57,368 nucleotides of DNA, taken from IMG/VR virus record IMGVR_UViG_3300032560_001015, positions 1 to 57,368 of that record. One strand, written 5' to 3'. The stretch comes from a virus. The translations under genes were made by a program, and so were the position numbers. Below are positions 8,731 to 47,855 of the stretch, in pieces (position 1 is the stretch's first letter; every line of letters starts with the position of its first letter). A model generated the notes under the pieces. It saw only the letters and a list, made by a program, of their open reading frames with translations. It was not told the DNA's origin and did not search any database.

Positions 8731-10652
<1,922 letters not shown>

Positions 10653-12556: not shown

Positions 12557-12585
12557 ATTATAGTATCATTTGGTATTGTTGTCAA
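12557..12585 (-). promoter_or_regulatory. sigma70-type promoter
   Basis: TTGACA (12585-12580), 17-base spacer, TATAAT (12562-12557), a perfect consensus match, driving the 432-aa gene that starts at 12489. Confidence 0.85.
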
Positions 12586-12603
12586 CCTCTTTTTAGAGGT
12601 AGC

Positions 12604-12623
12604 AAACCCGCCGAAGCGGGTTT
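12604..12623 (-). terminator. tmRNA 3' hairpin / probable terminator
   Basis: A perfect 8-bp stem AAACCCGC / GCGGGTTT with a CGAA loop lies about 50 bases past the tag stop codon. The T tract after it on the minus strand is short (TTT), so it may act with RNA processing rather than alone. Confidence 0.55.
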
Positions 12624-12629
12624 GGTTAT

Positions 12630-12938
12630 TTTGGGTAACAAGGCATAACTGCCCCGTGGTTGCTGTTTCTTAGGCAGCTACTGCTTCTGTACCACGAGCA
12701 AAGCGGAAACCGCGGCCCATAGATACTTTTACAGTACCAAGTGTAGATGCTTTTGCATTTACGGATTTTGCTTGATTTACAGTCATCGCCTACTGTGTTG
12801 TCCACTTGCCTACTAAGCCGTCAATCGATACCATGGCACCCCCAACGAAAAACTCTCTTTCAAAAATGCTTTGGTGGAGGCGACGGGAGTCGAACCCGTG
12901 TCTTGTCCGTTTTTGGACTCGCTTCATACAACAATTCT
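12630..12938 (-). ncRNA. ssrA: circularly permuted (two-piece) tmRNA
   Basis: Reading the minus strand, the acceptor part comes first: a T arm (ACGGG-TTCGACT-CCCGT), the strand CGCCTCC, then ACCA ending at 12872. A 28-base intervening loop follows. Then comes GGGGGTG at 12843, which pairs with CGCCTCC over all 7 positions (two G-U). Next are a TATCGATTGACGG block and the tag frame ending in TAA at 12670. This 3'-part-first order is the hallmark of permuted tmRNA genes of alphaproteobacteria, cyanobacteria and some betaproteobacteria. The tag frame ends ...GTEAVAA, the typical AA-type Clp degron. It is unusually long and basic: about 28-33 residues if translation resumes at the Ala codon near 12771 or 12756. 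Mature ends are approximate. The job would be rescue of stalled ribosomes and tagging for ClpP-type proteases. Confidence 0.8.
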
Positions 12939-13256
12939 TTAATCCCAATATGGAAGTGGTTCCTTAGCATTTAGTATAACTTCATACTCTGGATCCAACA
13001 ACCATTTTTGGATTTTTCTTTTAGCATCACGGCGATGTGGTCTTTGCATTACCATGTTAACCCACCATCCTTGTGGACAGTTGTTAAACTTATGTGTGCC
13101 TGCATCACTGTGATACTTGTTTACTACTCGTTTATACTGCTTGGTTTTTGGGTCCATTGGCACCCAAATTAATCTGCCTGGGACTTTGATCATTTCTCTA
13201 GTTTGCCAAGCTAGATCAGTGTGGTCGCCACGCTTACGTCTACGTGTTCTAGACAT
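12939..13256 (-). CDS. basic hypothetical protein
   Basis: A 105-residue, strongly basic protein beginning MSRTRRRKRGDHTDLAWQ with several Trp residues and HRRDAKRKIQKWL. The composition suggests nucleic-acid binding, but no family is recognised. The gene ends one base before the tmRNA acceptor region, so the tmRNA precursor may be cut from the same transcript. Confidence 0.55.
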   Translation of the reverse strand: MSRTRRRKRGDHTDLAWQTREMIKVPGRLIWVPMDPKTKQYKRVVNKYHSDAGTHKFNNCPQGWWVNMVMQRPHRRDAKRKIQKWLLDPEYEVILNAKEPLPYWD

Positions 13257-18399: not shown

Positions 18400-19452
18400 A
18401 TGATTATCTATAGTGATACCAGTGTTTGCGATAGTTGGGCAGAATTACCTAACATTACCATAGTAAAAAATATTAATGTTTATATGGATTCGCCAGGGCC
18501 AAAAACCGCAGTATTTCATGCGCCCTTTCCTAGGTATTCAGATTTTGATCATTTAGAAGAAACTTTCAACCAAATATATGATTCTAGTGAGCAGATAATA
18601 CTACTGGTCACAGAACTACACGATGTCACTGTAGATTTCATTGAAAAGTTTGATCGCCCTAAAATAGTCCTGTTCTTAAATGGTGATTTAAATTTCAAAC
18701 TAGATCATGCTACCTACTATCACTACCATCATTGGTTTGAGTCTACTACGTTGTTTTATAAAAATAATCAGTTTCTACTAGACAAGTTAACTCCTTATAC
18801 TGCTAAACCTAAATATTTTGACATATTATTAGGACAAGAAAGAAAACATCGTGATGAAATATTTTCTTATATCAAACACAATAACCTAGATGACAAAGTT
18901 ATTCTAACCTATATATCTAGTATAACAGAAAGTTTTCAAGAAAAATCCGCCACTGAGTGGCAATGGGAAAGTGAAGGATTAGAAATTCCTGATTGGCCTA
19001 TTAGGCATACTATACGCCCAGTAAAATACTACAATCAAATAATTTCATTAAGCCAGATCATTCCATTGAGCATTTATAACCAAACAGCCTACACAGTAGT
19101 AGCAGAAACATGGGGGATTGATAATCGCTTTACCTTTAACACTGAAAAAATCGTCAAACCTATTCTAGCTGAAAGGTTATTTTTAGTGGCCAGCAATCAA
19201 TACTATCTACGTAACTTACGTGCATTGGGATTTCGTACATTTGACACGGTCATAGATGAAAGTTATGATCTAGAACCTGATTATAAAATCAGATGCCAAA
19301 TGATTGGTGAACAGATAAAATTCTTAGCTGGTCAACCTCAGAAAGAACTTTTAGCTAAAATTAGTCCAATAACAAAGCATAACCAAAGTTTGATGTTAGG
19401 TACTGATTGGTATGGAGAATTTTTAAATTCTCTTGGCGCAATTATAGTTTAA
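18400..19452 (+). CDS. glycosyltransferase-like protein (paralogue A)
   Basis: The frame is open from 18343, but the ATG at 18400 (MIIYSDTSVCDSW...) is preferred because the longer start lies in the opposing promoter. About 350 residues. The C-terminal third carries FNTEKIVKPILAERLFLVAS and LRALGFRTFDTVIDESYDL. These motifs are shared with the protein at 26693-27967 and resemble the nucleotide-sugar-binding end of exostosin/fucosyltransferase-like GT-B enzymes. The N-terminus is unrelated to known families. It overlaps the frame of a B12-type radical SAM gene, so the two may modify the same glycan or small molecule. Enzyme class is an inference. Confidence 0.55.
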   Translation: MIIYSDTSVCDSWAELPNITIVKNINVYMDSPGPKTAVFHAPFPRYSDFDHLEETFNQIYDSSEQIILLVTELHDVTVDFIEKFDRPKIVLFLNGDLNFKLDHATYYHYHHWFESTTLFYKNNQFLLDKLTPYTAKPKYFDILLGQERKHRDEIFSYIKHNNLDDKVILTYISSITESFQEKSATEWQWESEGLEIPDWPIRHTIRPVKYYNQIISLSQIIPLSIYNQTAYTVVAETWGIDNRFTFNTEKIVKPILAERLFLVASNQYYLRNLRALGFRTFDTVIDESYDLEPDYKIRCQMIGEQIKFLAGQPQKELLAKISPITKHNQSLMLGTDWYGEFLNSLGAIIV

Positions 19453-19460
19453 ATACTAGT

Positions 19461-20942
19461 GTGCACCATACGTTAATTTTCAATTTAAGCTCTTATCAAC
19501 CAGAATATCGCAGAAGTCTAGGCGGTCATCGTATAGCCTCTTGGCTACGTGAACAAGGATGGGATGCCGAAGTAATTGACTTTATTGAATTTTGGACTTT
19601 AGAAGAATTACAAGAACTTTGTCGCGAACGTCTTAATGATCGCACAGTATTTGTTGGGTGTAGCACAACATTTTCTTATTCTAGTCCATTAATACAAAAA
19701 TTGTTTATATGGATTAAGGCAACATATCCTAAAATTAAACTGGTTGTGGGCGGGCAAAGCCTAGGACGTATTATTATACCTGCTGATTGGTACATTGAAG
19801 GATATGGCGAACATGCTATCTTAGAAGTAATAGCTCATCTGTTGGGTAATAATAACAAAGTCAAATACTCTCTATGGAACAACGGCAAGAAATTTATCAA
19901 TGCCATACACAGCTATCCAGCTTATCCAATGTCTAGTCTGCGTGTGCAGTACGAAGCTAGAGATTTTATACGTGAATTTGAATGGCTAGGTATTGAGATT
20001 GGGCGAGGTTGTAAATTTAAGTGTGACTTCTGCGCTTATCCTATACTGGGAGTCAAAGGTGATTATTCTAGAGCCGCAGATGATTTTCAACAAGAACTTC
20101 AGGACAATTATGATCAATGGGGAGTCAGCCATTATTATGCCGCTGATGAAACATTCAATGATCGCACAGAAAAAATTATTAAATTTGCAGATGCTGTTGA
20201 AAATTTAAACTTTAATCCTACCTTTATGGGATTCATACGCCCTGATTTGCTAGTGTCGCGTCGTGAAGATTGGGAACATCTACTGAGAATGAGATTTTTT
20301 ATGCATCACTATGGTGTAGAAAGTCTTAACTGGCAGTCAGCTAAAAGCATAGGCAAAGGCATGCCTACTGAAAAGTTAACTCAGGGATTGTTAGAAGCCA
20401 AGCAGTGGTTCAAACAATATGTTCCATATCATGGGGTAATGAGTTTTATTGTTGGATTACCGCACGAAACAAAAGAGACTATTCAAACTACATTTGATTG
20501 GGTTGATGCCAATTGGCAAGATCAGCATGCAACTTTTTATCCATTAAACATTGTTGTTGAGGATCGTCACAAATCTACCATTGGGGAAGATTGGGCTTCA
20601 AGAGGCTACAGAATTAAACCTCTTGAAAATATAAGCATGCCTGAAGAAAGTCTGGCACGCACAAACAATCTGCCATGGCATGATGAAATTTTAGGATTAC
20701 ACTGGGCCAATGATCACATGGATTTAAAATGGGCCATTGCAACTATCAATGATTGGAATGCAACTAAACAGATAAAGCATTCTGTATCAGGGTGGGCGTT
20801 TGGTCAGGTCCTGCCCTATACCAATTTATCAATTGAACAATTTGTTAATACACCTGCAGAAAAAATAAATCATTTTATAGTCCAACATCAGACTAAAAAA
20901 TTAATTAAAGAATATATTAACTCAAAGATCAATTATAGATAG
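19461..20942 (+). CDS. B12-binding radical SAM enzyme
   Basis: Start taken as GTG at 19461 (VHHTLIFNLSSYQPEYR...), after the stop of the previous gene; an earlier ATG at 19407 would overlap it by 46 bases. About 493 residues. Residues 1-130 form a cobalamin-binding-like domain (GWDAEVIDFIEFW, VGCSTTFSYSS, KLVVGGQSLG). The radical SAM core follows, with cluster cysteines C184-x3-C188-x2-C191 in RGCKFKCDFC. Such class B enzymes methylate or rearrange unactivated carbons. Its neighbours suggest action on a sugar-related or secondary-metabolite substrate. The 3' end overlaps the uvdE stop by 21 bases in a convergent arrangement. Confidence 0.8.
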   Translation: MHHTLIFNLSSYQPEYRRSLGGHRIASWLREQGWDAEVIDFIEFWTLEELQELCRERLNDRTVFVGCSTTFSYSSPLIQKLFIWIKATYPKIKLVVGGQSLGRIIIPADWYIEGYGEHAILEVIAHLLGNNNKVKYSLWNNGKKFINAIHSYPAYPMSSLRVQYEARDFIREFEWLGIEIGRGCKFKCDFCAYPILGVKGDYSRAADDFQQELQDNYDQWGVSHYYAADETFNDRTEKIIKFADAVENLNFNPTFMGFIRPDLLVSRREDWEHLLRMRFFMHHYGVESLNWQSAKSIGKGMPTEKLTQGLLEAKQWFKQYVPYHGVMSFIVGLPHETKETIQTTFDWVDANWQDQHATFYPLNIVVEDRHKSTIGEDWASRGYRIKPLENISMPEESLARTNNLPWHDEILGLHWANDHMDLKWAIATINDWNATKQIKHSVSGWAFGQVLPYTNLSIEQFVNTPAEKINHFIVQHQTKKLIKEYINSKINYR

Positions 20943-21965
20943 TTGCCGAGCACGTTCGTATAGTGCAAAACTAGCCAAATTCTTACCCTTGCTTTCGCAC
21001 ATGATGTCAAACTTGTCTAAGAATGACAATGCCCAATCGTTACAAGCAGTGTTCCAGTAGAAGTCACTGTGCGCACGCATCTTACTTTTCTTGTAGCCTT
21101 GCTCTAGTAGTAGGCTGTGGTTAGGAGCTGTACTAGATGAATGAGCGGGGAGAACGTCTTCTCTGGATACACTATAGTGTAGCGTAGGACGCAGGCCGCG
21201 CCAACTGTCAAGAATGCGTGCAATTCTGGCATCCTTAAGATCAATGTAATGCCCTTCGCGGATCCAATGGTGGTGGATATCAAGAACAATAGGTACAGTA
21301 TCGACAAGATTGAGGCAATCATCAAGACCATGTTTCATTTCCTCGTTTTCAATGGTAATAGTGTTGCGTGCTTCAACACTGAGTTTAGGGTAGACATCAA
21401 GGATACCTTGATAGCCTCTACGACCTGCAATATGCACGTTGCATTTAAAGTCTTGGAACTTTTGGCCATAGCCCATCATGCGAATCATGTCCGCATGATA
21501 CTCAAACTCTGCTATACTCCTGGCGACAATATCGTCATTATCGCTAGCCAAAACAGTAAACTGACCAGGATGAAAGGATAAACGTACACCACGATCCTTA
21601 GCAACCAATCCAACTTCTGCAAAAAGCTGTTCACAACGCCTTTTAACATCAGCTTGCTGCCAATAATAAGACCAGCTAGACTCAGTATATACAGGCAAGA
21701 TGTCACTGCTAATACGTACCATGCGAAGTGATTCATCTAAGTTACCTACCCTCTCAATTAGTTTGCGAGTGGACATAATGTTTTGTTCCATTAGGTCCCA
21801 TAGCCGCTGTTCAGCTACTTCGCGGGATTGACGATTAAGCCAAGCCACTGTAGTAGTACCTGTATTGAATTCTTTTGCAGCGTCTGTGGATTTGATACCC
21901 TCAACTTGATCAGGGCGATCAATCCACTTGCAGGCAAAACCGATGCGTTTGATTTGTGATGTCAT
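20922..21965 (-). CDS. uvsE: UV DNA damage endonuclease
   Basis: A 347-residue UVDE-family TIM-barrel nuclease, which nicks DNA 5' of UV photoproducts to start excision repair. Conserved pieces include IGFACKW at the start, TTVAWLNRQ, RISSDILP, LSFHPGQFTVL (metal ligand His), ENEE near residue 200 and DIHHHWI. Complete length for the family. It would give the virus light-independent repair of pyrimidine dimers, a usual need for surface-water phages. It has a consensus promoter whose +1 coincides with the ATG, so the message is probably leaderless. Confidence 0.93.
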   Translation of the reverse strand: MTSQIKRIGFACKWIDRPDQVEGIKSTDAAKEFNTGTTTVAWLNRQSREVAEQRLWDLMEQNIMSTRKLIERVGNLDESLRMVRISSDILPVYTESSWSYYWQQADVKRRCEQLFAEVGLVAKDRGVRLSFHPGQFTVLASDNDDIVARSIAEFEYHADMIRMMGYGQKFQDFKCNVHIAGRRGYQGILDVYPKLSVEARNTITIENEEMKHGLDDCLNLVDTVPIVLDIHHHWIREGHYIDLKDARIARILDSWRGLRPTLHYSVSREDVLPAHSSSTAPNHSLLLEQGYKKSKMRAHSDFYWNTACNDWALSFLDKFDIMCESKGKNLASFALYERARQLSIIDL

Positions 21966-21971
21966 AAAACT

Positions 21972-22000
21972 ATTATAACACCAAAATGTCTTTATGTCAA
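21972..22000 (-). promoter_or_regulatory. sigma70-type promoter, leaderless, for uvsE
   Basis: TTGACA (22000-21995), spacer 17, TATAAT (21977-21972), then AGTTTT and ATG. The -35 box overlaps the stop codon of the upstream fibre-like gene. Confidence 0.85.
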
Positions 22001-23265
22001 CCTACTTTACCAAAACTTGCCCACTGTGTTGCGCCCAAACAAACCCAGCCAATTGCTGAACCAGGCATAGGACTTTCATTCCAAACTATAGTACCTGTGA
22101 TAGCAGGATAGTTTGGTATTGTCGAAGCTGAGCTCATAGGAGTATTACCTATGCGTAGGTTTTCTATTTCTACACTACCATCAGGATCTAATAGAATATT
22201 TTGTTTGTTATTAGCACCAATGACCAACTGTTGACTACGTGGTGTGCCAATATAACCTGTGTCTTGACTGCGTTTGTTCACTACCACTTCAACTTCTTGG
22301 TCCCAAACACTTAACACCGCAGTAGGATCAATGGTGTTTACTCCTACTCGTCCCTGTGTAACATACAAGGTATCAACTAATAGATTTTCACCTGATGTCT
22401 GTAGGTCGTTAACCACACCCAAACGTCTGATGTTGGTATCAATGATATGGTATCCTAGCCTATTACCACTGACAATTTCTTTCCCACCTTGTGTGATCTT
22501 GTCTAGATCAATACCATCAGCCTGCATCTTTTTAAAGATAATGTCGCTGAATCCTGAAAATAAATCATCTGTTAGTAATTCTTTGACTGCTTGACTGGTT
22601 TGTTCTACCAGCTTTAAAAAGCCCTTGGCATCAGCCGCTACTTCACCATTAATCACCAAACGGCCATTGAGACTGATGTCACCTTTGACTGTGAGTTGTG
22701 GAGCAAACAATGGCCCTTCAAATGCAGTACCACGATCCATCAAGGTCATCTGTACACGAGTACTTAGATCTTCTATGCCTGTACTGCCAAAGTTTGTGAT
22801 AATACCGCCGCTGACCTGGTCACCTGTTAACTTTAGTCCTGAAAAATCTATGCTGTTGTGACTGATACTTTTTTCTGGGAAGCTGGTAGTCTGTAGCATA
22901 CTGCCTACTTTGTTCTGCACCAATGCTCCAATAACTTCTGTGACGTTTACTGCGGCTAGTTTTTGATTGATGTAGCTGCTGATCTGTTGGTTAGCAGTTG
23001 CAGTTAGGTTTTTATTAATCTGGTCAGTTAATTGTGCTACAATCTTTTGCAGTTGTTCATCGCTGGTGCTAACAAAGTTAAAATTGTCCAGGCGTGTACG
23101 GATTTGTTGTTCAACAAGGCGTTGTACAACGCTGTCAAATTCAGTATTGGCAATTTTAGCAACGATTTCATTGGAAATTTGATCGCGTAGTTCAGCTTCG
23201 ATAGTGCCTTTAAGGCTGTCTATGATGCTGGCGACAATAGGTTGTAACTGTTCATTGATATCCAT
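21997..23265 (-). CDS. coiled-coil fibre-like virion protein
   Basis: A 422-residue protein. Residues 1-130 are heptad-rich helix (MDINEQLQPIVASIIDSLKG...), likely a trimeric coiled coil. A fibre-like region follows, with LTVKGDISLNGRLVING and a C-terminal cap ending IGWVCLGATQWASFGKVG. That last segment is common at the end of structural proteins of T4-like phages. No signal peptide. It stands apart from the main fibre block, among metabolism genes. Confidence 0.6.
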   Translation of the reverse strand: MDINEQLQPIVASIIDSLKGTIEAELRDQISNEIVAKIANTEFDSVVQRLVEQQIRTRLDNFNFVSTSDEQLQKIVAQLTDQINKNLTATANQQISSYINQKLAAVNVTEVIGALVQNKVGSMLQTTSFPEKSISHNSIDFSGLKLTGDQVSGGIITNFGSTGIEDLSTRVQMTLMDRGTAFEGPLFAPQLTVKGDISLNGRLVINGEVAADAKGFLKLVEQTSQAVKELLTDDLFSGFSDIIFKKMQADGIDLDKITQGGKEIVSGNRLGYHIIDTNIRRLGVVNDLQTSGENLLVDTLYVTQGRVGVNTIDPTAVLSVWDQEVEVVVNKRSQDTGYIGTPRSQQLVIGANNKQNILLDPDGSVEIENLRIGNTPMSSASTIPNYPAITGTIVWNESPMPGSAIGWVCLGATQWASFGKVG

Positions 23266-23283: not shown

Positions 23284-24027
23284 TTAGAAACTAATTGAAA
23301 TAACGTGTTCGTAGTTTTTCTTGATTAAACTTTTATACATCAAGTTCTTATGTACATAAAAACTCTTTGCTCCAGCATCAATGCTGAATTTAGCCATCTG
23401 CTTGAAAAACATACTGCGACGAGCAAATGGGCCGGTGGTCACTGCATTAGCACCATGCATCTCATATACTGTGGTGCTCCAACTATTTCTATCATTGAAA
23501 TCATAATGATGATACTCTAAAAATAGTTTTGTATCGTTGTGTGCGTGAACTGCCAATGGTTGACTAAATTCACGATCACGGAAATCTTGGTTCTTATAGT
23601 CACGTAAGGTGGTTATAATAACATCTTTGGCTAGATCACTAGCTGACTTTATTTTATCTAACTGCTCTTGTTCTGAGTTGGCAAAGGTAAAATACTCATC
23701 GCTGGCCACTACCCAATTAAACTGCTTTTTATATTCTTTTAATTCTGCATCAGCAATATATACGTATTTAACTCCTGTAGTGTCTAGGAATTTTTTTGTA
23801 TCTGCTGTGATACCTGTAACAGCTATCTGTTTATATTTGGCACCCAACATCATAGGACTGAATCCGTAGAACAGTACACTGGTGGGAACTGCTCCATGAT
23901 GCTCTGAGATTGAACGAAGAATTTCTTGCTTCTTGTCAATAACTTCTTGGCTTTTAGGATTAAATTTGAAAGCACTTAAACTGGCTTCAGAATACGTGGC
24001 AAAACCTTGCGGCATAATTGTTTCCAT
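23284..24027 (-). CDS. hypothetical protein, possibly methyltransferase-like
   Basis: A 247-residue soluble protein. The central part (TSVLFYGFSPMMLGAKYKQIAVTG, KYVYIADAE, FNWVVASDEYFTF, LAKDVIITTLRDYKNQ) follows the beta-alpha rhythm of a class I SAM methyltransferase, with GFSP in place of the glycine loop. The glycine-rich motif is poor, so binding of SAM is uncertain. There is a second possible start four codons in (MPQGFATYSE), and no clear ribosome site at either. It is situated beside the amidinotransferase gene, in the same direction. Confidence 0.4.
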   Translation of the reverse strand: METIMPQGFATYSEASLSAFKFNPKSQEVIDKKQEILRSISEHHGAVPTSVLFYGFSPMMLGAKYKQIAVTGITADTKKFLDTTGVKYVYIADAELKEYKKQFNWVVASDEYFTFANSEQEQLDKIKSASDLAKDVIITTLRDYKNQDFRDREFSQPLAVHAHNDTKLFLEYHHYDFNDRNSWSTTVYEMHGANAVTTGPFARRSMFFKQMAKFSIDAGAKSFYVHKNLMYKSLIKKNYEHVISISF

Positions 24028-24042
24028 TTGTAACTATTTAGT

Positions 24043-24957
24043 TTATTCTCTAACTAAATCAAGCGTTACACAATGGAAGCTGCCTCCTAGTGTGCGGCTA
24101 TGGCGCAATTTTAATGGAATACTGGTAATACCTACTCGCTCTAGGTCTTTAATAAGCTGGGTCTGCGCCGCATCAATGATCACAGTGTTTGGATCAACAC
24201 TCAGCATATTCATACCAACCCACTTGCTGGCATAGGGATATTGATAAAAGTCCTGTGCTACTACATCCTGTACCCAAATCTTCTCCCATCCATCAAAGGC
24301 TTTTGGGCAGTTTACTTGATTAACACGACTAGCATTTAATACAACTAACCCTTCACGCAGTGGTGCTATGGTTGAATCAATATGCACACCGCTGTAGAAG
24401 TTACATAGTTCTATTTTGATTTGTGGGAACTGTTGACATAACCATTCGTAGGCCTTACGATTGCCGCTGGGGCTTTCTAAGTATAACCAAGTGTTACCTA
24501 AACGGCAAATGTTAGCGGCATCTAAGGTCATACCTTGACCACGCGGCATATTAAACACCATGCGTGCTGAATTAGTCACCGCTTGTAGTGCTTGAATTTC
24601 TTGATCACGGCAAGGATACATCATAGCAGGATCAACTACACAGCTACCCCATATTATCAATCTATCTCTAGGACAATAATTGTACATGCCACCTAGCTCT
24701 TGAAAGTTCATATCTGCGGGACGATGGACTTCAACGCCTATTTGTGTCAAGACATTGGCTAGGTCATCTAGATCCTCATTGGCTTCGTCAATGATCCACT
24801 GCGGCACTGGGCCACTAGGCACTGGTGTTTCTTTCCAAGTGGTCTTAGAACTTTCCTGAGCAAACACAGGATCTGTACTAGGCCAATTGGCATGTGTTGC
24901 TGATCCTACGACCACTGATTTTAGTTTTCCCCATTCATTACTTGTGCTGATCTTCAT
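24043..24957 (-). CDS. amidinotransferase (glycine/inosamine amidinotransferase family)
   Basis: A 304-residue pentein-fold enzyme. Visible catalytic pieces are GMTLDAANICRLG, the His/Asp segment SGVHIDSTIAPLREGLVVLN, and the nucleophile Cys296 in GGSFHCVTLD at the C-terminus. Members transfer the amidino group of arginine to an amine such as glycine or an inosamine. The protein is somewhat short but all blocks are in order. Its start overlaps the previous gene's stop by 4 bases, placing it in one operon with a 2OG oxygenase and a UDP-sugar dehydrogenase. A guanidino-sugar or guanidino-compound product is inference. Confidence 0.82.
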   Translation of the reverse strand: MKISTSNEWGKLKSVVVGSATHANWPSTDPVFAQESSKTTWKETPVPSGPVPQWIIDEANEDLDDLANVLTQIGVEVHRPADMNFQELGGMYNYCPRDRLIIWGSCVVDPAMMYPCRDQEIQALQAVTNSARMVFNMPRGQGMTLDAANICRLGNTWLYLESPSGNRKAYEWLCQQFPQIKIELCNFYSGVHIDSTIAPLREGLVVLNASRVNQVNCPKAFDGWEKIWVQDVVAQDFYQYPYASKWVGMNMLSVDPNTVIIDAAQTQLIKDLERVGITSIPLKLRHSRTLGGSFHCVTLDLVRE

Positions 24958-25460
24958 ACGTGTCCTGTAACTTGTAGTGTGTATCTTGGTGTGTAGCCCA
25001 TGTTAGCCGCTAGGTGCGGAGTATCGTACCACCATACTACCACATCACCCGCTGACCATTTAACCACAGGTTCACCTGCTACTTCTAAATAGTGGCCACT
25101 GGCCCAGTCTTCTAAAAACACAATAGCACGATAAATGCTTTGATGTGTAGTTTCTAATTCAAATACGTCAATATAGCGTTTATAAGTGTCTATATGATTA
25201 GGTAAGATTGTACCCGAATCCATGCGATAATAACTAGTACAGACATCTTTCCACTTTAGCTGTTCTTCAAAGTAAGCAATAATACGATTATTCCATACAG
25301 GCTGTGTCTTGCGCATATCACACATGCTGCCCACAAAGTTATCAGCAAAGCCCATGTCTGTCCAACGTGCAGTGTCGCTGGGATTGTTAAATGGTTCTTT
25401 GCTATAATCTAAATGCAGATATGCATCGCCCCAAAACGGCTCTATGTTAAATCTGTCCAC
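24954..25460 (-). CDS. 2-oxoglutarate/Fe(II)-dependent oxygenase-like protein
   Basis: A 168-residue double-stranded beta-helix protein. The iron facial triad is visible as His89 and Asp91 (PNHID) and His149 (DTPHLAANMG), and Arg159 (TPRYTLQ) would hold the 2-oxoglutarate carboxylate. This is typical of small phage hydroxylases. It overlaps both neighbours by 4-14 bases, so it belongs to the dehydrogenase-amidinotransferase operon and could hydroxylate the same metabolite. Confidence 0.72.
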   Translation of the reverse strand: MDRFNIEPFWGDAYLHLDYSKEPFNNPSDTARWTDMGFADNFVGSMCDMRKTQPVWNNRIIAYFEEQLKWKDVCTSYYRMDSGTILPNHIDTYKRYIDVFELETTHQSIYRAIVFLEDWASGHYLEVAGEPVVKWSAGDVVVWWYDTPHLAANMGYTPRYTLQVTGHV

Positions 25461-26691
25461 GTGTGTTTCCGTAGTGAATAACAGTATACGATGGGTTACG
25501 TGTAGAGTACCTACGCCATGGATCTACAATAATGCTACCGTGGCCTGGTGTAAAATATAGTTGTTGTTCTGGCAAGTTACCTGTATAGCCGTAGGTAATC
25601 TGACGATTGTGTGCTAGTAGAACAATACCTTCGGTGTCGTCATACACCGTATCGCCTGTTAGAGGATCACTGTACAAGTATTGTGCGCCATGTTCCTCTA
25701 GATAACTACCAATTAATAAGCTGTAACTGCCTTCTAACATATCTACATCTGGCTTGTAGGCCTTGCCATGAATAATAATTGGCATATCGTGTGTGTTTTG
25801 TAAATCTATTAGGTATAATGCTAGGTTCTCTGCTTGCTTTTCACGAGCGTGCATGACTGTGTCAAATATATCATAGCCTAGATCTAGTCTTTCTGCTAGA
25901 TATCGTAGAGCAATATTATCGCGAGGATGACAAGGGCCAGCATCGCCCATGCCTGCGGTCATGTACTTAGGACTCATAATACGTATAGTTGATTCTGCTA
26001 GGGCAGATGTTACTACATCTACATTCATGTTGCCATTCTTCATGGCCACATCTTGTATCATATTAACTAGGCCAATCTTGGTTGATATAAATGTATTGTA
26101 AAAGACTTTGATAGCTTCTGCTTCGTCCCATGTGCCGATAGCGTAGCGTGGATTGTTAGCCATGAGGGGTTGGTAGAAGTCTTTGAGTAATTGTGCATCA
26201 CCTGTTAGGCTACCATCTTCTGTGCCAATGATAACCATTTCTGGATTAACCATATCCCAGGCAACACTGCCCATGGCTATTAGGTAAGGATTATAGATAA
26301 AACGTGCGTTGGTAATATGACGACGTAATTCACGTCTTGTTGTGCCAGGTAGTACCGTTGAGATTAATACCACTAGTTGATCTTTGGTCACGTATTGATT
26401 GATGTCAGCTAAGACTTGATTAGCAATGGTGTAATCAAAATCTTTATTAGCCAAATGTGTACTAGGAATAGATCCATCATATACAGGATCATGTGGTGTT
26501 TGTACTGCTACAAAGATTACGTCTTTGCCTCGTACTGCACCTTCTAGTGTATCAGAAATCTTAATCTTCTTACTGTGTTTAGGGTAAATATCATAGCCAG
26601 TTACATCATATTCTTGTGCCATTACTTCTGCACAGGCTAGGCCTAATTTACCGATTCCAATGAATCCTACTGTTTTTAATTGAATTGACAT
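25447..26691 (-). CDS. UDP-glucose/GDP-mannose dehydrogenase-family protein
   Basis: A 414-residue NAD-dependent nucleotide-sugar 6-dehydrogenase. The Rossmann motif GFIGIGKLGLA is at residue 9-19, followed by STVLPGTT (112-119), YNPYLIAMG (134-142), and the catalytic Cys254 in GDAGPCHPRDN. The GGPC-F-KD signature is changed to AGPCHPRD, so substrate choice may differ from the usual UDP-glucose. The product would be a UDP-uronic acid for glycans. It heads the operon continuing with a 2OG oxygenase and an amidinotransferase. Its ATG stands back-to-back with the ATG of the plus-strand gene, with one base between. Confidence 0.85.
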   Translation of the reverse strand: MSIQLKTVGFIGIGKLGLACAEVMAQEYDVTGYDIYPKHSKKIKISDTLEGAVRGKDVIFVAVQTPHDPVYDGSIPSTHLANKDFDYTIANQVLADINQYVTKDQLVVLISTVLPGTTRRELRRHITNARFIYNPYLIAMGSVAWDMVNPEMVIIGTEDGSLTGDAQLLKDFYQPLMANNPRYAIGTWDEAEAIKVFYNTFISTKIGLVNMIQDVAMKNGNMNVDVVTSALAESTIRIMSPKYMTAGMGDAGPCHPRDNIALRYLAERLDLGYDIFDTVMHAREKQAENLALYLIDLQNTHDMPIIIHGKAYKPDVDMLEGSYSLLIGSYLEEHGAQYLYSDPLTGDTVYDDTEGIVLLAHNRQITYGYTGNLPEQQLYFTPGHGSIIVDPWRRYSTRNPSYTVIHYGNTRGQI

Positions 26692-26692
26692 A

Positions 26693-27967
26693 ATGCTCCA
26701 AATTGATCATATCTACGAATTTTTTTTAAAAAATGTCTTCCCAAAATCAGAGGGATATTTTCGTCCCAATGGGGTTGTGACTAAAGATAATGTAAATGTA
26801 TTTAATAGAAATAGTTCCAATTCTAAAATATTATTCTATGATCAAGAGCCATTCCTAAATGAAGTTGAGGATTTACTTGGTTGGTTTAAAACTCCAGAAC
26901 CCTTGACTAGAATTACAATCTTTGAAGATCTTAGATACCCTAAATTTAAAGAATATTCATTAGATGAATTGTATAATCTGTATTTCAATGATCCTAATAC
27001 TGATAAAACAGCCAATCATCCAGATGTTCATGCTACTACGTTGGCTTATCCTAATACCTTTTTTAAAGAACCACATATAATAGTAGTTTCTGAAATATCA
27101 GAATATCTGCAGACTCTATTAAAAAATTATGAATTGAATCCGCTTTACTACTTTTTCCATGGCTTTGCGGCCTTAGATTGGTATCGTGGATTCTATGCTT
27201 TGAACTTTAATAAATCAATAGTCAGATCATATGACTATGATTTTACCTCGTTTAATAGAATTATCAACTATGATCGTAGCTATAGGATTTACTTGATTAG
27301 TTTGCTAAAAGCTCAAGGTCTATTAAACAAAGGGCTAGTCAGTTTTAATGTTACTGACAACGCATTTGATGATTGGCGTGATGAAGTTGCTGATCCAAAT
27401 AGTAAACTAAGCGAGTTTGCAAAACAGCACGCAGAAACTCATTTGGTTAATGTTGATAAATTAGTCATAGACCATGCAGAATTGCCAGGTAGTGCCAGTG
27501 CTGACATTCCTAGAGGAAATGATGCACTGTGGAACATTGTAACTGAAACAGTGTTTTACTACAATAAGCTACATCTAACTGAAAAGATATTCAAACCTAT
27601 CGTCAGCAAGCAACCTTTTATGCTCGTGGCTGCACCAGGTAATCTTGCCTACTTACGCAGTTATGGATTTAAAACCTTTGATGGAATCATTGATGAAAGC
27701 TACGATCTTATTCAAGACAACGATCAGCGCACTGCCGCAGTAGTTGATCAATTGGCATGGTATTGCGGTTTATCTGAAGATGAAAAATTAGATGTCATAA
27801 AGCGTATAGAACCTATTGTTTTGCACAATTTCCATCACTTTTATGGCGAATTCCGCCACATAATCACACAAGAATTAATCACTAATGCAAAGACCTTGTT
27901 TAAAGATCTAGGCTATGATGACAGTCACATTAACTACCATGATATCTATCATGTGCTGACCCATTAA
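26693..27967 (+). CDS. glycosyltransferase-like protein (paralogue B)
   Basis: A 424-residue protein. Near residues 290-345 it has LTEKIFKPIVSKQPFMLVA and YLRSYGFKTFDGIIDESYDL, matching the paralogue at 18400-19452 in the same order. It likely shares a GT-B-like donor-binding C-terminus. The N-terminal half is Phe/Tyr-rich and not recognised. No ribosome site is possible in the 1-base gap before the ATG, so it is likely leaderless or started from within the opposing gene. Substrate unknown. Confidence 0.55.
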   Translation: MLQIDHIYEFFLKNVFPKSEGYFRPNGVVTKDNVNVFNRNSSNSKILFYDQEPFLNEVEDLLGWFKTPEPLTRITIFEDLRYPKFKEYSLDELYNLYFNDPNTDKTANHPDVHATTLAYPNTFFKEPHIIVVSEISEYLQTLLKNYELNPLYYFFHGFAALDWYRGFYALNFNKSIVRSYDYDFTSFNRIINYDRSYRIYLISLLKAQGLLNKGLVSFNVTDNAFDDWRDEVADPNSKLSEFAKQHAETHLVNVDKLVIDHAELPGSASADIPRGNDALWNIVTETVFYYNKLHLTEKIFKPIVSKQPFMLVAAPGNLAYLRSYGFKTFDGIIDESYDLIQDNDQRTAAVVDQLAWYCGLSEDEKLDVIKRIEPIVLHNFHHFYGEFRHIITQELITNAKTLFKDLGYDDSHINYHDIYHVLTH

Positions 27968-29773: not shown

Positions 29774-30103
29774 ATGGATATTGTAATGTTAATCAATAAG
29801 TATGGCTTCCCCATTGTCATGGCAGTGGGCATGGGCTATATTATCAAATACGTATGGGAATGGAGCACAAAAGAAGTTAAGCCTGTGATTAGCGATGCTA
29901 ACACTGTGCTGATTGCGCTTATTGATCGTATACGTATGCTAGACAATGACCTAATACGCTTAAATCAAAAAGTAAACACAGTCTTACACCTACGTGGCAA
30001 AACAATTGAACACGAACGTGTTGAAGCTGAAAAAGAAATTAATATGAAAGTACATAAAGCTAAAACAGAAGACGACCAAGCCGCATCAAGCGGCGAAGGT
30101 TAA
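29774..30103 (+). CDS. small membrane protein, holin-like (paralogue 2)
   Basis: A 109-residue protein beginning MDIVMLINKYGFPIVMAVGM with a helix near residues 8-28, then a charged coiled tail with LIALIDRIRMLDNDLIRLNQ and VLHLRG. Related to the protein at 28025-28306. Ends convergent with the D,D-peptidase gene; the two stop codons overlap by 4 bases. Confidence 0.6.
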   Translation: MDIVMLINKYGFPIVMAVGMGYIIKYVWEWSTKEVKPVISDANTVLIALIDRIRMLDNDLIRLNQKVNTVLHLRGKTIEHERVEAEKEINMKVHKAKTEDDQAASSGEG

Positions 30104-30870
30104 CTTTTAATTAGCTCTTCTGCCTCTGGAAAGCGTGTATGTGCATTGCGACTTCCAAGTAGGGCAATTATACGCTGACCTAACTGCGTATTCATCAGCA
30201 TTACCAAACATCCGCCACTTTGGTGAATATACCCAGTTTTACTTACAATAATATCATCGTCATGTAGTCTAACAATAGGGCTGGTATTAAATGCCTGATA
30301 CCAATGTTTCTTTACTTTAATCTCAACGCTAGGTCGAGTAGCACTGACTATGTTGGGATAACTTTTAGCACTGATAATAAGTTTAATTAAATCGCGAGCT
30401 GTACTGACGTTGGTTTCCTCTAGGCCAGTGGGATCAGTGTAGTGTGTGTTGGCCATGCCAAGATTGATGGCCTTGAGATTCATAGCCTCTATACAACTAT
30501 CAACTCCGCCTGGATAGTTCGCGCATAAAGTATAGGCCGCAAAGTTATCACTTTTAACCATGGCTAGATCAATTAGGTCTTGGCGAGTAAGTGTTTTAAC
30601 ACTATGAGGTAAGTGTGTATGATATTGGCGGGTTAACTTATAGTCTAAGATAATCACGTCATCTAACGGCTGGCGAGAATCTAGCACAACCATAATGGTC
30701 ATTAGTTTAGTAATACTAGCAATAGGGCGTGGTTGATCTGCATCTTTCTCAATAACAACTTGTCCTTGAGTATCAGTGACCAAATAGCTCTTAGCAGTTA
30801 CACCAGCTTGTACGGTAACTGCAAACGATACCAAAAGAAAAAATATAATTTTATTCATAGTTAATAACAT
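30100..30870 (-). CDS. D-alanyl-D-alanine carboxypeptidase / endopeptidase (S11 family)
   Basis: A 256-residue penicillin-binding-type peptidase. Signal peptide to about residue 22 (alternate start at the ATG four codons in). The active-site motifs are present in order: SITK (S52-K55), SDN near residue 111 and SKTG near 209. It would act on peptidoglycan stem peptides in the periplasm. It ends near KTG+45 without the C-terminal domain and membrane anchor of PBP5, like PBP7. On a phage it may loosen the wall for lysis or for export of surface proteins. It overlaps the radical SAM gene start/stop by 20 bases. Confidence 0.85.
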   Translation of the reverse strand: MLLTMNKIIFFLLVSFAVTVQAGVTAKSYLVTDTQGQVVIEKDADQPRPIASITKLMTIMVVLDSRQPLDDVIILDYKLTRQYHTHLPHSVKTLTRQDLIDLAMVKSDNFAAYTLCANYPGGVDSCIEAMNLKAINLGMANTHYTDPTGLEETNVSTARDLIKLIISAKSYPNIVSATRPSVEIKVKKHWYQAFNTSPIVRLHDDDIIVSKTGYIHQSGGCLVMLMNTQLGQRIIALLGSRNAHTRFPEAEELIKS

Positions 30871-32008
30871 CCGTTATGACATTTCGTTTAATTAACTCTT
30901 TGAAGTCTTCCATGTTGTCTGCCTTTGGTGCGCAATACCCGCAGAAGCATATAGATTTTGCACACTTGACCACAGGCATAGATTTAGTTTCAAATTGCTC
31001 TTTAAGATTATTGATTAGTGCTGAGCTATTGCTCAAGTTGCCAATTGGTTCTACTTTGCCAGTGAATGACATCTTACAATCTTTATTAAAATAGACCTTG
31101 CCAGTGGTCTGTTGAACAAATAAGAAGAACCAATTTACACTACAGTTCCAGCCAAAGAATCCCTGTTTAGGCACAAATACCACAGCTGATTTCAAGTCTT
31201 TGTTTAAGGACATTTTCCTACCACCACAACATGCACGACCTTCACAGATGCTTACAACATCGCTGGTATCTGTTGCTATATCATTTAATTGTTCTATAGC
31301 TGGTTGATTATTTTTTGAATTGGTATTAGAAATCCAAAATGTTTTAAACTTTGAATATTGATCAGCGGTGTATGCTAGTTCTGGATTATCAAATGGTTTG
31401 GGTATACATCTAATATCGTGTTGCTTACAAAATTCCACAGCTTCAGATGATTTAATCCATAACTCAGGTACGGTGTGCATCATTACCACACATTTTACAC
31501 GCTTGTTATTGTTCTTTAATTCTAATAGATTTTCAAAGAATATCTTTTCTTGTTTAGGAAGATTTTCTGCATGATAGCTGACTGTAAATTCATCTATTAG
31601 ATCTATTACTTTGCTCCAGATACTTTGTTTAACAATAGCATTGGTAGTGGTGGTAATAGTTAATTCCCATTGGCTGGAATACTTTTTATATTTTTCTCTG
31701 CAGGCAGTGAGAATATCAATGATGTCTGGATGATACAAACTTTCGCCGCCATAGACGTTTAATACTACCTTACGTTGAGTGGGCTTTTTATTGGCCATGT
31801 ATAGGCTAACGTACTCATACATAAAGTCAATAGTTTGTAAACATTCATCTAGCGGAGGATGAGGTAACGAGTTATCGTGCCCTCCTTCTTCACCTATTTC
31901 GCAATAGCTGCAATCCAAATTGCACTTTTTGGTTAGTTCCCAATCTAATAGAAAGGCTGGTATATTATTGGGATCTAGAGCGATCCCAATTGATTTAATT
32001 TCTTCCAT
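30851..32008 (-). CDS. radical SAM enzyme with extra cysteines
   Basis: A 385-residue protein. The cluster motif CNLDCSYC (C29-x3-C33-x2-C36) opens a SAM radical core, with the GGES-like NVYGGESLYHP near residue 88. Additional cysteines appear as CEGRACCGGRK near residue 255 and CAKSICFCGYC near residue 350, fitting a SPASM-like second cluster region, as in enzymes that modify peptides. No candidate precursor peptide is directly adjacent. It overlaps the cyclase gene by one base, so the peptidase, SAM enzyme, cyclase and lipoprotein are one operon. Confidence 0.78.
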   Translation of the reverse strand: MEEIKSIGIALDPNNIPAFLLDWELTKKCNLDCSYCEIGEEGGHDNSLPHPPLDECLQTIDFMYEYVSLYMANKKPTQRKVVLNVYGGESLYHPDIIDILTACREKYKKYSSQWELTITTTTNAIVKQSIWSKVIDLIDEFTVSYHAENLPKQEKIFFENLLELKNNNKRVKCVVMMHTVPELWIKSSEAVEFCKQHDIRCIPKPFDNPELAYTADQYSKFKTFWISNTNSKNNQPAIEQLNDIATDTSDVVSICEGRACCGGRKMSLNKDLKSAVVFVPKQGFFGWNCSVNWFFLFVQQTTGKVYFNKDCKMSFTGKVEPIGNLSNSSALINNLKEQFETKSMPVVKCAKSICFCGYCAPKADNMEDFKELIKRNVITDVINYE

Positions 32009-45258: not shown

Positions 45259-46734
45259 TTACGGTCCTTGACGTACAGTCACAGTACCGCAGCCTCCTGC
45301 TTGTACGCAGGTTTGACTTATACCATAACTTTGTCCGCCTGTTTGTGTTAGATTTACACTAGCGGGGCCACCAGCATTGGTTAGGTTGATGGTTGCTGTG
45401 TTGGCTGTATTGCCTGACTGATTTACTGTAGCAGTGTTACCATCTCCATTTAGATTAACATCTAGAAAATGCTGCCCAAGTCCAGTTTGACTAATTGTTT
45501 CTGTATTTTGATTGCCTGAGACTGCGGTGAATAACTGTTTAGGTGAGTTACCAGTTTGTATTAGACCTATGTTATTCTGATTGCCTGTGACATTGATGCT
45601 GGCATAGTTGCCTACGTTATTATTAACTGTGGCCTGCTGTTGAACGTTAACTGAATTGTTAACTCCACTAACATATATGCTACTATAATGATATCCAGAG
45701 TCTGTGCCACTACCGTTACCGTTTGCGTCTGTGCCTTGATTAACTGTTAGACTATTGCTTCCCCCTAGTAGGTCTGCGGCTATGACGTTATGTGTGCTTA
45801 ATGTATTAGTAGGGTCGCCCTGATGTATAGTAACTGTGTTATTGCCGCCACGAACTTTCATAGCAGTTTGATCTTGTCCACCTATTAGGTTAGACTGATT
45901 GTTTACTGTGATATTAATATGATCACCACTGCCAATTTGATCTATATAGACGTGGCTGGGTGTGGGCAAGTTGACCTGCTGATTACGAGAAATGTTCATT
46001 GATGTTTGTTCAGCATTGGTAATACCACTGCCCCCACCCACAGTAGTTGTGCTTAATAGTACTGCACTGCCATTGTTAACCACAGTCTGAGAGCCATCAC
46101 TATAGGTTGTAGTGGTAATAGGTTGACTGTAGGTATAGACCGTCGCTCCACTTGTAGCTGTTGTGGTAATTGTTGAGTTTACTCTGCTGGTTATAGTAAC
46201 AGCAGGTGGCGCCGACTGTCCTGCCGCTAAGGGAGTAGTGTTAGGCGGAGTATAATTAGTCATGTAGGTATTACTAGGATAACTCTGTGTGATAGTCCAA
46301 GATCCACCTTGCCCATAACTATATCCCTGTGCTGTAGTGAACAATGTACCCCAACTGCCATTACCATTATAGAATATAGCACCATCTGCCAGAGCCACAA
46401 AGGTCCCTGTGTAGTCCAACACACGAACTAGATTATTGTTAGTGTCATATACTCCAAGTCCAAAGGTTCCAGGATTAGTTGAGCTATGAAAAAAAGCCAA
46501 ATAATCACCAGCTGATGCATAGGCATTAGTTTGTGTAGATGTTAGTCTGCCCGCTTGTAATTGGCCACTTGCGTTGACACTGGCATACAAATAATTGAAA
46601 CTGCTGGCATATAATTTGCCGTTGCTGGTATACCACTGTACATCAAATACCTGTGCGAAGCTAAAATGTTCTTGGGTAACGTCAGCCCATGCACTAGAAC
46701 ATACAAGTAATAAGATTAACAGTAACTTTTTCAT
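45259..46734 (-). CDS. secreted protein with curlin-type repeats (curlin 3)
   Basis: A 491-residue exported protein (signal peptide MKKLLLILLLVCSSAWA). Residues 20-170 form an unrecognised N-terminal domain with several Tyr/Ser beta strands. From about residue 265 the chain is built of curlin-like repeats: VYIDQIGSGDHINITVNNQ, INVTGNQNNIGLIQTGN, VNLNGDGNTATVNQSG. That is the pattern G-x2-N-x5-Q of amyloid fibre subunits. It ends with a Cys pair (GISQTCVQAGGCGTVTV). It is the last gene of the operon and could cap or anchor the fibre. Overlaps the FecR gene by 4 bases. Confidence 0.75.
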   Translation of the reverse strand: MKKLLLILLLVCSSAWADVTQEHFSFAQVFDVQWYTSNGKLYASSFNYLYASVNASGQLQAGRLTSTQTNAYASAGDYLAFFHSSTNPGTFGLGVYDTNNNLVRVLDYTGTFVALADGAIFYNGNGSWGTLFTTAQGYSYGQGGSWTITQSYPSNTYMTNYTPPNTTPLAAGQSAPPAVTITSRVNSTITTTATSGATVYTYSQPITTTTYSDGSQTVVNNGSAVLLSTTTVGGGSGITNAEQTSMNISRNQQVNLPTPSHVYIDQIGSGDHINITVNNQSNLIGGQDQTAMKVRGGNNTVTIHQGDPTNTLSTHNVIAADLLGGSNSLTVNQGTDANGNGSGTDSGYHYSSIYVSGVNNSVNVQQQATVNNNVGNYASINVTGNQNNIGLIQTGNSPKQLFTAVSGNQNTETISQTGLGQHFLDVNLNGDGNTATVNQSGNTANTATINLTNAGGPASVNLTQTGGQSYGISQTCVQAGGCGTVTVRQGP

Positions 46735-47855
46735 CGTTGTATCACCGTTATAGTACTGCCCGCACCTTGATTGACACGGTTTTTAATAGTAACTGCGCCC
46801 TGTGTTTCTACTAGTAGACTATTTTGATCTTTAGGAGTACTAATACATTGATTGTTACTGCCATCACTACGGCATAAGGTAACTTCACTTGCGCCAATAC
46901 TTTCAGTAACACCTGTAGACTTTTTATAGTCTGGCAGTATGTTATTAGTTTGACTTGGTGCTATCAAGTTAGCTAGTAGTCCAGCTTGTTCTTCTTGTAG
47001 CTGTTGTGCCAAGATGTCAAAAATGTTTTCAAGGAAGTATTGTTCTAATAGTGGGTGTGCCAATGGGTTATCTCCAAAGGGTGTGCCTTCTTTTTCAAAC
47101 TCATTTTTTAAATAATCTTGTTTAAGAAAGTCTACATTTAACATATCAGCAGGATTTTTAGTTGATATGTTTTTAGTTTCTATTCCTTCCTTGCGTAGTT
47201 CTTTGGGCGGACTAACGATCAGCAGGTTGTTAATCGTATCAGGTGACAAGTTTAATACTGTTGGTTTCATTGGCATTGTAGTACGACTGGCTACCTTAGT
47301 GCCTTGAAAGGCTACATTAAGACTAACCATACCAGCATCGTTAATAACGTCAATGGCACCTGTTTTACAATCTCTGTCTATATCTGCCCAACCTTTAGGA
47401 CAACTTGGCAGTAGAATAACAGTACTTTCGCCCATTTCATCTACTGTAGCCGTAAAGTCTGTACCACGCACTGCTATGGTCGCGCTAGGCGTGTTTAGTG
47501 CTACTTTGTTAGGGTTACTGTGCGCAATAGCACCTGATGCGTAACGAACTGTGCCCTGTGTAAACTTCATAGCCAGTTTGCCGGCACTGGGCTTTTTAGG
47601 ATCAAATACAAAATCATCAATGACTAACTTACTACTTTCATTAACTTCTACTTTAGTATCGTCTTGGAATGTAATGCCAATCTTACCTTTAGTAGTCTGT
47701 ACCTTGTCATTCATTTCAATGCCAGCACCTTTCTTACCTTCCATGGCAGTAAAACTACGAGTAATAGTACCAGGCAGGGCTGTTTGTTCTGTGATAGTAC
47801 CCACTGCGGCATTGGCTAGTAAAGGGACAAGTAACAAGATTAGTAGTTGCTTCAT
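46731..47855 (-). CDS. FecR-domain protein in the curli operon
   Basis: A 374-residue exported protein (signal peptide to about residue 16). The FecR core covers KKGAGIEMNDKVQTTKGKIGITFQDDTKVEVNESSKLVIDDF..., RYASGAIAHSNPNKVALNTPSATIAVRGTDF, the usual periplasmic beta module. The C-terminal part has long charged stretches and ends ...GSTITVIQR with curlin-like character. FecR domains often sense or stabilise matrix or iron-linked export. Coupled by 4-base overlaps to curlin 2 and curlin 3, so it is a true operon member. Confidence 0.85.
   Translation of the reverse strand: MKQLLILLLVPLLANAAVGTITEQTALPGTITRSFTAMEGKKGAGIEMNDKVQTTKGKIGITFQDDTKVEVNESSKLVIDDFVFDPKKPSAGKLAMKFTQGTVRYASGAIAHSNPNKVALNTPSATIAVRGTDFTATVDEMGESTVILLPSCPKGWADIDRDCKTGAIDVINDAGMVSLNVAFQGTKVASRTTMPMKPTVLNLSPDTINNLLIVSPPKELRKEGIETKNISTKNPADMLNVDFLKQDYLKNEFEKEGTPFGDNPLAHPLLEQYFLENIFDILAQQLQEEQAGLLANLIAPSQTNNILPDYKKSTGVTESIGASEVTLCRSDGSNNQCISTPKDQNSLLVETQGAVTIKNRVNQGAGSTITVIQR

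Follow-up and report, generated by a model that had tools for sequence, protein, structure and literature searches.

Guanidine-bearing sugars are best known from the antibiotic streptomycin. Streptidine biosynthesis follows a logic in which a dehydrogenase, an aminotransferase and an amidinotransferase act in that order. Phage-made glycans are already known, and the DNA of Bacillus phage SP-15 bears glucuronolactone, the phage also encoding a UDP-glucose dehydrogenase (UGDH), according to PMC5977210. In the open-access literature (most subscription journals and all preprints fell outside the scope of the search), no amidinotransferase in a phage sugar operon has been described. This agrees with the original prediction, made from the sequence of the present locus, that its enzymes do not belong to a known phage pathway. 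The locus lies in IMG/VR virus record IMGVR_UViG_3300032560_001015, which was analyzed as a window of 57,368 bases. Three overlapping minus-strand genes at 24043-26691 encode a UGDH-like protein, a 2-oxoglutarate (2OG) oxygenase-like protein and an amidinotransferase, and a glycosyltransferase-like gene diverges from them. With slightly better than even confidence, the locus is read here as a phage glycan-tailoring cassette that makes a guanidino-sugar. The core genes are as follows.

25447-26691, minus strand: divergent nucleotide-sugar 6-dehydrogenase of the UGDH family (phage subfamily), 414 amino acids, first gene of the operon, identified with Pfam, NCBIfam and PHROG.
24954-25460, minus strand: predicted small 2OG-Fe(II) oxygenase, 168 amino acids, GTG start, identified from alignments, a structural model, Foldseek and VIA.
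24043-24957, minus strand: StrB1-like amidinotransferase, 304 amino acids, identified from PDB sequence searches, an alignment and a tree.
26693-27967, plus strand: GT-B glycosyltransferase-like protein, 424 amino acids, with a TEK motif, identified from its modeled fold; conserved operon partner.

The UGDH-like and 2OG-like genes overlap by 14 bases and the 2OG-like and amidinotransferase genes by 4 bases, and these open reading frame (ORF) coordinates confirm the three overlapping genes in one operon of the original prediction. The identities that it gave to the products are supported by Pfam for the UGDH, by the StrB1 match and by the modeled fold of the 2OG protein, and the fold likewise bears out the glycosyltransferase-like protein that it placed nearby. 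A single base separates the starts of the divergent glycosyltransferase and UGDH genes. Promoter and terminator scans returned 21 hits, with no excess over the shuffle mean of 20.2, and 5 hits, about equal to the 3.2 in shuffles, respectively.

The amidinotransferase is of the AGAT/StrB1 type (pentein fold): by sequence, deiminases and hydrolases are more remote from it than other amidinotransferases are. Its nearest solved structure is StrB1, which in streptomycin biosynthesis acts on scyllo-inosamine phosphate (inosamine-phosphate amidinotransferase), ahead of glycine amidinotransferase (AGAT). It matched StrB1 (1bwd) with an E value of 1.5e-55 in a PDB sequence search, and a profile search scored StrB1 at 297 bits (E value, 1.2e-87), HsvA at 174 bits (3.7e-50), AGAT at 170 bits (6.1e-49), SxtG at 162 bits and the DDAH hydrolases at 24 bits (2e-4). 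The protein missed the gathering score of Pfam PF02274 (16 bits versus 22.8). H192, D194 and C296 are invariant and D146 is nearly so in 34 alignment rows; these residues, with which D98 is also listed, stand at the catalytic Asp, His and Cys positions of AGAT. A role in creatine or guanidinoacetate metabolism was put aside, StrB1 outscoring AGAT by a wide margin; GAMT was not searched for. A viral GAMT has been reported in PMC11360552, and PMC8226683 lists a glycine amidinotransferase from a karst-lake virus under a KEGG label only. To the phylogenetic tree, each bacterial locus contributed no more than its two best matches, none below 120 bits; bacterial rows were trimmed to their last 365 residues, and bacterial loci L135, L136 and L139 were omitted as broken or partial. 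The amidinotransferases of Campylobacter phages are distant in this tree, joined to it by a very long branch, and were left aside. Larger amidinotransferase-like proteins of two other families, of about 350 and 375 to 423 amino acids, are encoded by the same phages as well (L261 15239-16300, L262 1699-2739, L264 13864-14883, L012 11761-12891, L016 11658-12785, L019, L025 and L076); in the 350-amino-acid family the HC motif is replaced by CC, and its genes belong to DegT/glycosyltransferase clusters.

The 168-amino-acid protein is predicted to have the double-stranded beta-helix fold of a 2OG-Fe(II) oxygenase. It fell below the cut-off of Pfam Asp_Arg_Hydrox (13.1 bits versus 22.6; E value, 0.09), a family that 13 of 31 members of its own family matched at an E value of 0.1 or less (best, 8.8e-6), and a PDB sequence search returned no matches, leaving the identity to be decided by the fold model. 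That model had a predicted local distance difference test score (pLDDT) of 95. VIA aligned it with 3dkq (Z score, 15.5; root mean square deviation [rmsd], 2.5; 152 residues aligned) and with the PiuC structure 9qn4 (Z, 15.0; rmsd, 2.7; 148 aligned), followed by PHD2 and prolyl hydroxylases, and Foldseek likewise matched prolyl hydroxylases and PiuC. H89-x-D91, H149 and R159 are invariant in 31 rows, including that of cyanophage S-SCSM2R, and are taken here to be the HxD...H iron triad and the 2OG-binding arginine.

For the divergent 424-amino-acid protein, no sequence family was found, a PDB sequence search gave no matches and a tblastn search of the phage collection gave none either, and its identity was again decided by a fold model (pLDDT, 78), which points to a divergent GT-B glycosyltransferase. 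The best VIA match was T4 DNA beta-glucosyltransferase (Z, 11.3; rmsd, 4.8; 270 aligned), tied with an alpha-1,3-fucosyltransferase (Z, 11.0; rmsd, 4.5; 255 aligned). The top 50 VIA matches, from Z 11.3 to 8.4, were all glycosyltransferases, which we take to be of the GT-B type; Foldseek alone reached an E value of only 4e-3.

The dehydrogenase passed the cut-offs of the N-terminal and central UGDH Pfam domains (UDPG_MGDP_dh_N etc.; 58.8 and 55.4 bits) and matched PHROG 9148 (E value, 3.7e-98), whereas its C-terminal domain stayed below the Pfam cut-off (24.1 versus 30) and the whole protein below that of NCBIfam TIGR03026 (142 bits versus 189.8). K195, N199, C254 and D258, which correspond to the catalytic Lys204, Asn208, Cys260 and Asp264, are invariant in 25 rows. 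PMC4794789 gives 18 residues as invariant across 229 nucleoside diphosphate (NDP)-sugar dehydrogenases, and, with residues matched from alignments, the phage subfamily keeps 15 of these (G12, G14, G17, T65, S111, T112, P135, E192, K195, N199, N210, G252, C254, D258 and K313). The three that changed are Glu141, replaced by Y136 in every row, Asn287, which reads R283, and Gly257, which is A or G. Human Glu161 is presumably the equivalent of Glu141. Human UGDH in which Glu161 is changed traps a thiohemiacetal intermediate (PMC3184952), and Tyr10, present in 98% of the family, is credited with thioester hydrolysis in PMC4794789. At the position of Tyr10, the phage subfamily has K15, invariant in 25 rows. 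The subfamily thus retains the residues for the first oxidation and the thiol within rebuilt surroundings; it may have a different substrate, or another way of resolving the thioester. An ordinary UDP-glucose dehydrogenase, as "UDP-sugar dehydrogenase" in the original prediction might be understood, is not supported, Tyr10 and Glu141 being replaced throughout.

Conserved in all three enzymes, the expected catalytic residues answer one of the checks raised with the original prediction; the other was a search for the same operon in other phages, where it recurs widely. When viral contigs were scanned with the amidinotransferase, 125 stretches matched and yielded 110 relatives, of which 80 were kept. 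All 80 loci contained the 2OG gene, 72 the UGDH gene, 72 the glycosyltransferase gene and 62 a UvdE gene; among 51 representatives at 90% identity, the corresponding numbers were 51, 43, 46 and 41. A profile scan with the amidinotransferase found at least 584 relatives in at least 600 stretches (80 kept, 47 of which are new loci), and one with the 2OG protein found at least 597 relatives in at least 599 stretches (72 new loci, some of which are slices of one and the same contig). The carriers are large freshwater phages, and some cassette loci lie in records of more than 340 kb. Among the matches listed, as for all pooled counts below, the 2OG gene was present in 126 of 127 loci seeded with the amidinotransferase, and the amidinotransferase in 71 of 72 seeded with the 2OG gene, the miss lying about 1 kb from a contig end. 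Both genes were on the same strand in all 197 paired loci, overlapping or separated by no more than 30 bases in 181 of them; the UGDH gene was adjacent in 165 and the divergent glycosyltransferase gene present in 173. The amidinotransferase identity to that of the window falls to 63% across the alignment. Pairwise nonsynonymous divergence (dN) was 0.06 to 0.34 where synonymous divergence (dS) was 0.8 to 2.3 or saturated, dS being near saturation; dN thus lies far below dS, which, with the recurrence of the genes, argues against a chance arrangement. Genes inserted between the 2OG and amidinotransferase genes include a second glycosyltransferase gene (L052-L054) and a radical S-adenosylmethionine (SAM) gene (L178).

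The pair also occurs in other settings. In the Synechococcus cyanophage S-SCSM2R (PQ898602), a 2OG gene whose product is 30% identical overlaps an amidinotransferase gene whose product is 41% identical and is labeled inosamine amidinotransferase by the depositors. A marine contig from a Chloroflexi bin (L105), the content of which looks phage-like, has a one-strand run of genes for a B12 radical SAM enzyme, a 2OG oxygenase of an unrelated family (PF13640), a StrB1-like amidinotransferase, a glycosyltransferase of the cassette's family, a short DegT protein and a carbamoyltransferase. Together with the cassette, these runs place a StrB1-like amidinotransferase beside 2OG and glycosyltransferase genes in three contexts, two of them with DegT in the run. 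A scan of genome contigs yielded 54 loci, one of which (L086, viral looking, on a contig in a Bacteroidetes metagenome-assembled genome) has a glycosyltransferase-2OG-amidinotransferase arrangement; none of the other 53 contained the cassette's 2OG family within the available flanks.

The operon contains no aminotransferase gene, and none was found in a 149-kb fragment of the same virus. Successive action of the three enzymes on a single nucleotide sugar is not supported. No gene of the operon makes the amine that would accept the guanidine group. Candidate aminotransferase genes were found in large relatives, here 15 records of 149 to 364 kb holding the cassette: DegT (PF01041) is present in 14 of them, in clusters separate from the cassette. 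Clusters of full-length DegT also contain an epimerase, glycosyltransferase-family members, in some cases a carbamoyltransferase, and another protein of amidinotransferase type, which scores 62 bits against the profile. Thirteen large records carry a short DegT frame of 194 to 241 amino acids besides the full-length one. Twelve of these regions were opened, and in 11 the ORF matches the short DegT protein of S-SCSM2R (121 to 157 bits); in the twelfth (L275), ORF tiling picked a frame on the opposite strand, though the family search lists a DegT match. An extended short-chain dehydrogenase/reductase (SDR) gene whose product starts with TGxxGxIG lies near the short DegT gene in 11 of the 12 (not L273), a protein of about 400 amino acids weakly similar to glycosyltransferase group 1 is common nearby (one was searched), and a 2OG-family homolog directly follows the short DegT gene in 2 of the 12 (L277 and L278) and, by coordinates, in G012. 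As an observation in its own right, a half-length DegT of about 200 amino acids is found repeatedly in large phages, in many cases next to genes for extended SDR and glycosyltransferase-like proteins (L273-L284; L001 5296-5883; L105 10570-11169; LR756502.1 461770-462348).

All 15 large records encode one full-length UGDH-family member. In three (G008, G011 and G015) its gene lies away from the cassette, beside a gene for a NadE-like protein, and NadE is present in 9 of the 15. The same adjacency is seen in Bellamy, HTVC008M, AG-345-E15 and LR756502. Where the operon lacks UGDH, none was found elsewhere in five records (28 to 177 kb, probably fragments).

The computations establish the genes, the folds and conserved residues of their products, and the linkage and recurrence of the cassette; for the substrates, the order of the steps, the aminotransferase partner and the acceptor, we infer a route that mirrors the streptidine order. 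The divergent NDP-sugar dehydrogenase would oxidize C6 of a nucleotide sugar, and an amine would be supplied by DegT-type aminotransferases encoded elsewhere in the phage or by the host. The StrB1-like enzyme would then transfer the amidino group of arginine to the amine of that sugar or of a linked one, giving a guanidino-sugar; the small 2OG oxygenase would hydroxylate the sugar or its guanidino product, and the GT-B enzyme would attach the sugar to its acceptor, most probably a glycan of the virion or the host surface. StrB1 as the nearest structure, the glycosyltransferases and the aminotransferase genes in the genomes of relatives support the likeness to guanidino-sugar antibiotics that the original prediction drew. 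StrB1-like genes of some bacteria lie in nonsugar clusters, so that homology alone is no proof of a sugar acceptor: in Vibrio their neighbors encode Asn synthase and AMP-binding enzymes, and in Cellvibrionaceae lyases and a pyridoxal phosphate-dependent decarboxylase. These neighborhoods weigh against the guanidino-sugar proposal, as do the lack of an aminotransferase in the operon and in the 149-kb fragment, the 32 of 197 paired loci without adjacent UGDH, and a locus (L179) in which UGDH stands directly against the amidinotransferase without a 2OG gene. In the tree, moreover, the viral amidinotransferases form their own clade (support, 100/100), which has a long branch and is separate from that of Streptomyces StrB1, and are linked only weakly (89/35) to S-SCSM2R, whose own row is long. 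On the same side stand the UvdE gene, often conserved downstream (62 of 80 loci), so that gene order by itself is no proof of a joint pathway, and the shared descent of one phage lineage, to which the conserved order is partly due.

The nonsugar bacterial neighborhoods, the kinship with AGAT, HsvA and SxtG and the operon's lack of an aminotransferase also favor an alternative in which the amidinotransferase makes a small guanidino metabolite, such as an amino acid or polyamine derivative, that the 2OG enzyme hydroxylates, the sugar genes being separate or serving to couple the product to a uronic acid as an amide. The NadE-like amide ligases that adjoin UGDH-family members in three large relatives, as well as in Bellamy, HTVC008M, AG-345-E15 and LR756502, fit such coupling, but StrB1 scores far above AGAT and the pair lies inside glycosyltransferase/aminotransferase clusters in S-SCSM2R and L105; this alternative is considered unlikely. 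That the genes are adjacent merely through the conserved genome order of one lineage, with no pathway, would be in keeping with the synteny of UvdE and other unrelated genes and with UGDH lying elsewhere in 3 of the 15 large relatives. It seems quite improbable, given that the pair stays overlapping or within 30 bases in 181 of the 197 loci despite amidinotransferase identity down to 63%, turns up amid other genes in a distant cyanophage, and has accepted insertions that include glycosyltransferase and radical SAM genes.

Hypermodification of phage DNA, in which a base would be hydroxylated and glycosylated with a guanidino sugar as protection against restriction, draws on the T4 DNA beta-glucosyltransferase as best structural match of the GT-B protein, tied as it is with the fucosyltransferase, and on the glucuronolactone and UGDH of SP-15. 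DNA ranks behind a surface or virion glycan as the target, since DNA-cytosine methylases (DNA_methylase, PF00145) were found in none of the 15 large relatives, with the control detected in 10 of 14, and only 4 of the 15 have a member of the thymidylate synthase family (PF00303), leaving most of them with no obvious deoxycytidine monophosphate hydroxymethylase. Tet_JBP was likewise found in none of the 15, in a search without a positive control. A role in DNA modification is accordingly judged very unlikely. Bolder than the guanidino-sugar cassette itself, and put forward tentatively, is the possibility that large phages install an undescribed guanidinylated, carbamoylated or amidated sugar. 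Because Tyr10 and Glu141 are lost and the catalytic cysteine is kept, the dehydrogenase may not release a free uronic acid; rebuilt in this way, it may forgo hydrolysis and present an amine with a C6 aldehyde or thioester, and a cationic, streptidine-like product could decorate virions, host surfaces or DNA.

That hundreds of phage contigs from the environment retain a streptomycin-type amidinotransferase suggests that cationic guanidino sugars are among phage-made glycans. If the guanidino-sugar proposal is true, it would add to the chemistry available for decorating virions, host surfaces or DNA, provide small, well-conserved enzymes for guanidino-sugar synthesis and mean that viruses, too, pass around tailoring chemistry of the antibiotic type. 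How the thioester is resolved in the unusual dehydrogenase is a directly testable question.

Downstream of the operon, two further genes occur in part of the clade only and are not core members.

23284-24027, minus strand: protein of unknown function, 247 amino acids.
21997-23265, minus strand: protein without a confident family, 422 amino acids.

A B12 radical SAM enzyme had also been placed near the operon. A score of 46.6 bits makes the product of 19407-20942 a radical SAM enzyme; its B12 domain stays under the cut-off (18.1 versus 32.1), and its gene, considered as a cassette member, was placed outside the conserved cassette because it is confined to the window and 3 of the 80 loci, those with an identical amidinotransferase. 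Elsewhere in the window are a UvdE-like UV endonuclease gene (20922-21965, minus strand; just below the TIGR00629 cut-off), a phage GroEL chaperonin gene (8731-10350, minus strand; phrog_5725; E value, 1e-179), a tRNA gene array, a candidate transfer-messenger RNA (tmRNA) called by ARAGORN and marked tmRNA* (12579-12964, minus strand), and a gene for a virion structural protein with relatives in cyanophages. A curlin-repeat gene (48680-49510, minus strand) lies near a FecR-domain gene (46731-47855, minus strand). A D-alanyl-D-alanine carboxypeptidase gene (Peptidase_S11, 135.8 bits; 30100-30870, minus strand) overlaps a second radical SAM gene (30851-32008), whose product weakly matches peptide maturases and viperin.

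Set beside described systems, the amidinotransferase resembles StrB1 (1bwd) over its whole length, with the same Asp, His and Cys positions and a similar C-terminal GG-FHC-TLD stretch, but it lacks about 23 residues in the stretch from R117 to D146, and its gene accompanies UGDH, 2OG oxygenase and glycosyltransferase genes rather than streptomycin genes. S-SCSM2R shares the overlapping 2OG-amidinotransferase pair among glycosyltransferases; its run differs in containing short DegT and radical SAM genes and no UGDH, a remote one (26.8% identical) being encoded elsewhere. The UGDH-NadE-carbamoyltransferase clusters of Bellamy and HTVC008M combine the same UGDH subfamily (57% and 51% identical, respectively) with tailoring enzymes, a NadE-like ligase there replacing the 2OG-amidinotransferase pair. 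The hypermodified-DNA cluster of SP-15 likewise joins a phage UGDH to glycosyltransferases, but that UGDH is remote (23.5% identical) and, according to PMC5977210, the sugar goes on DNA, whereas the sugar of the present cassette would most likely be placed on a virion or host-surface glycan.

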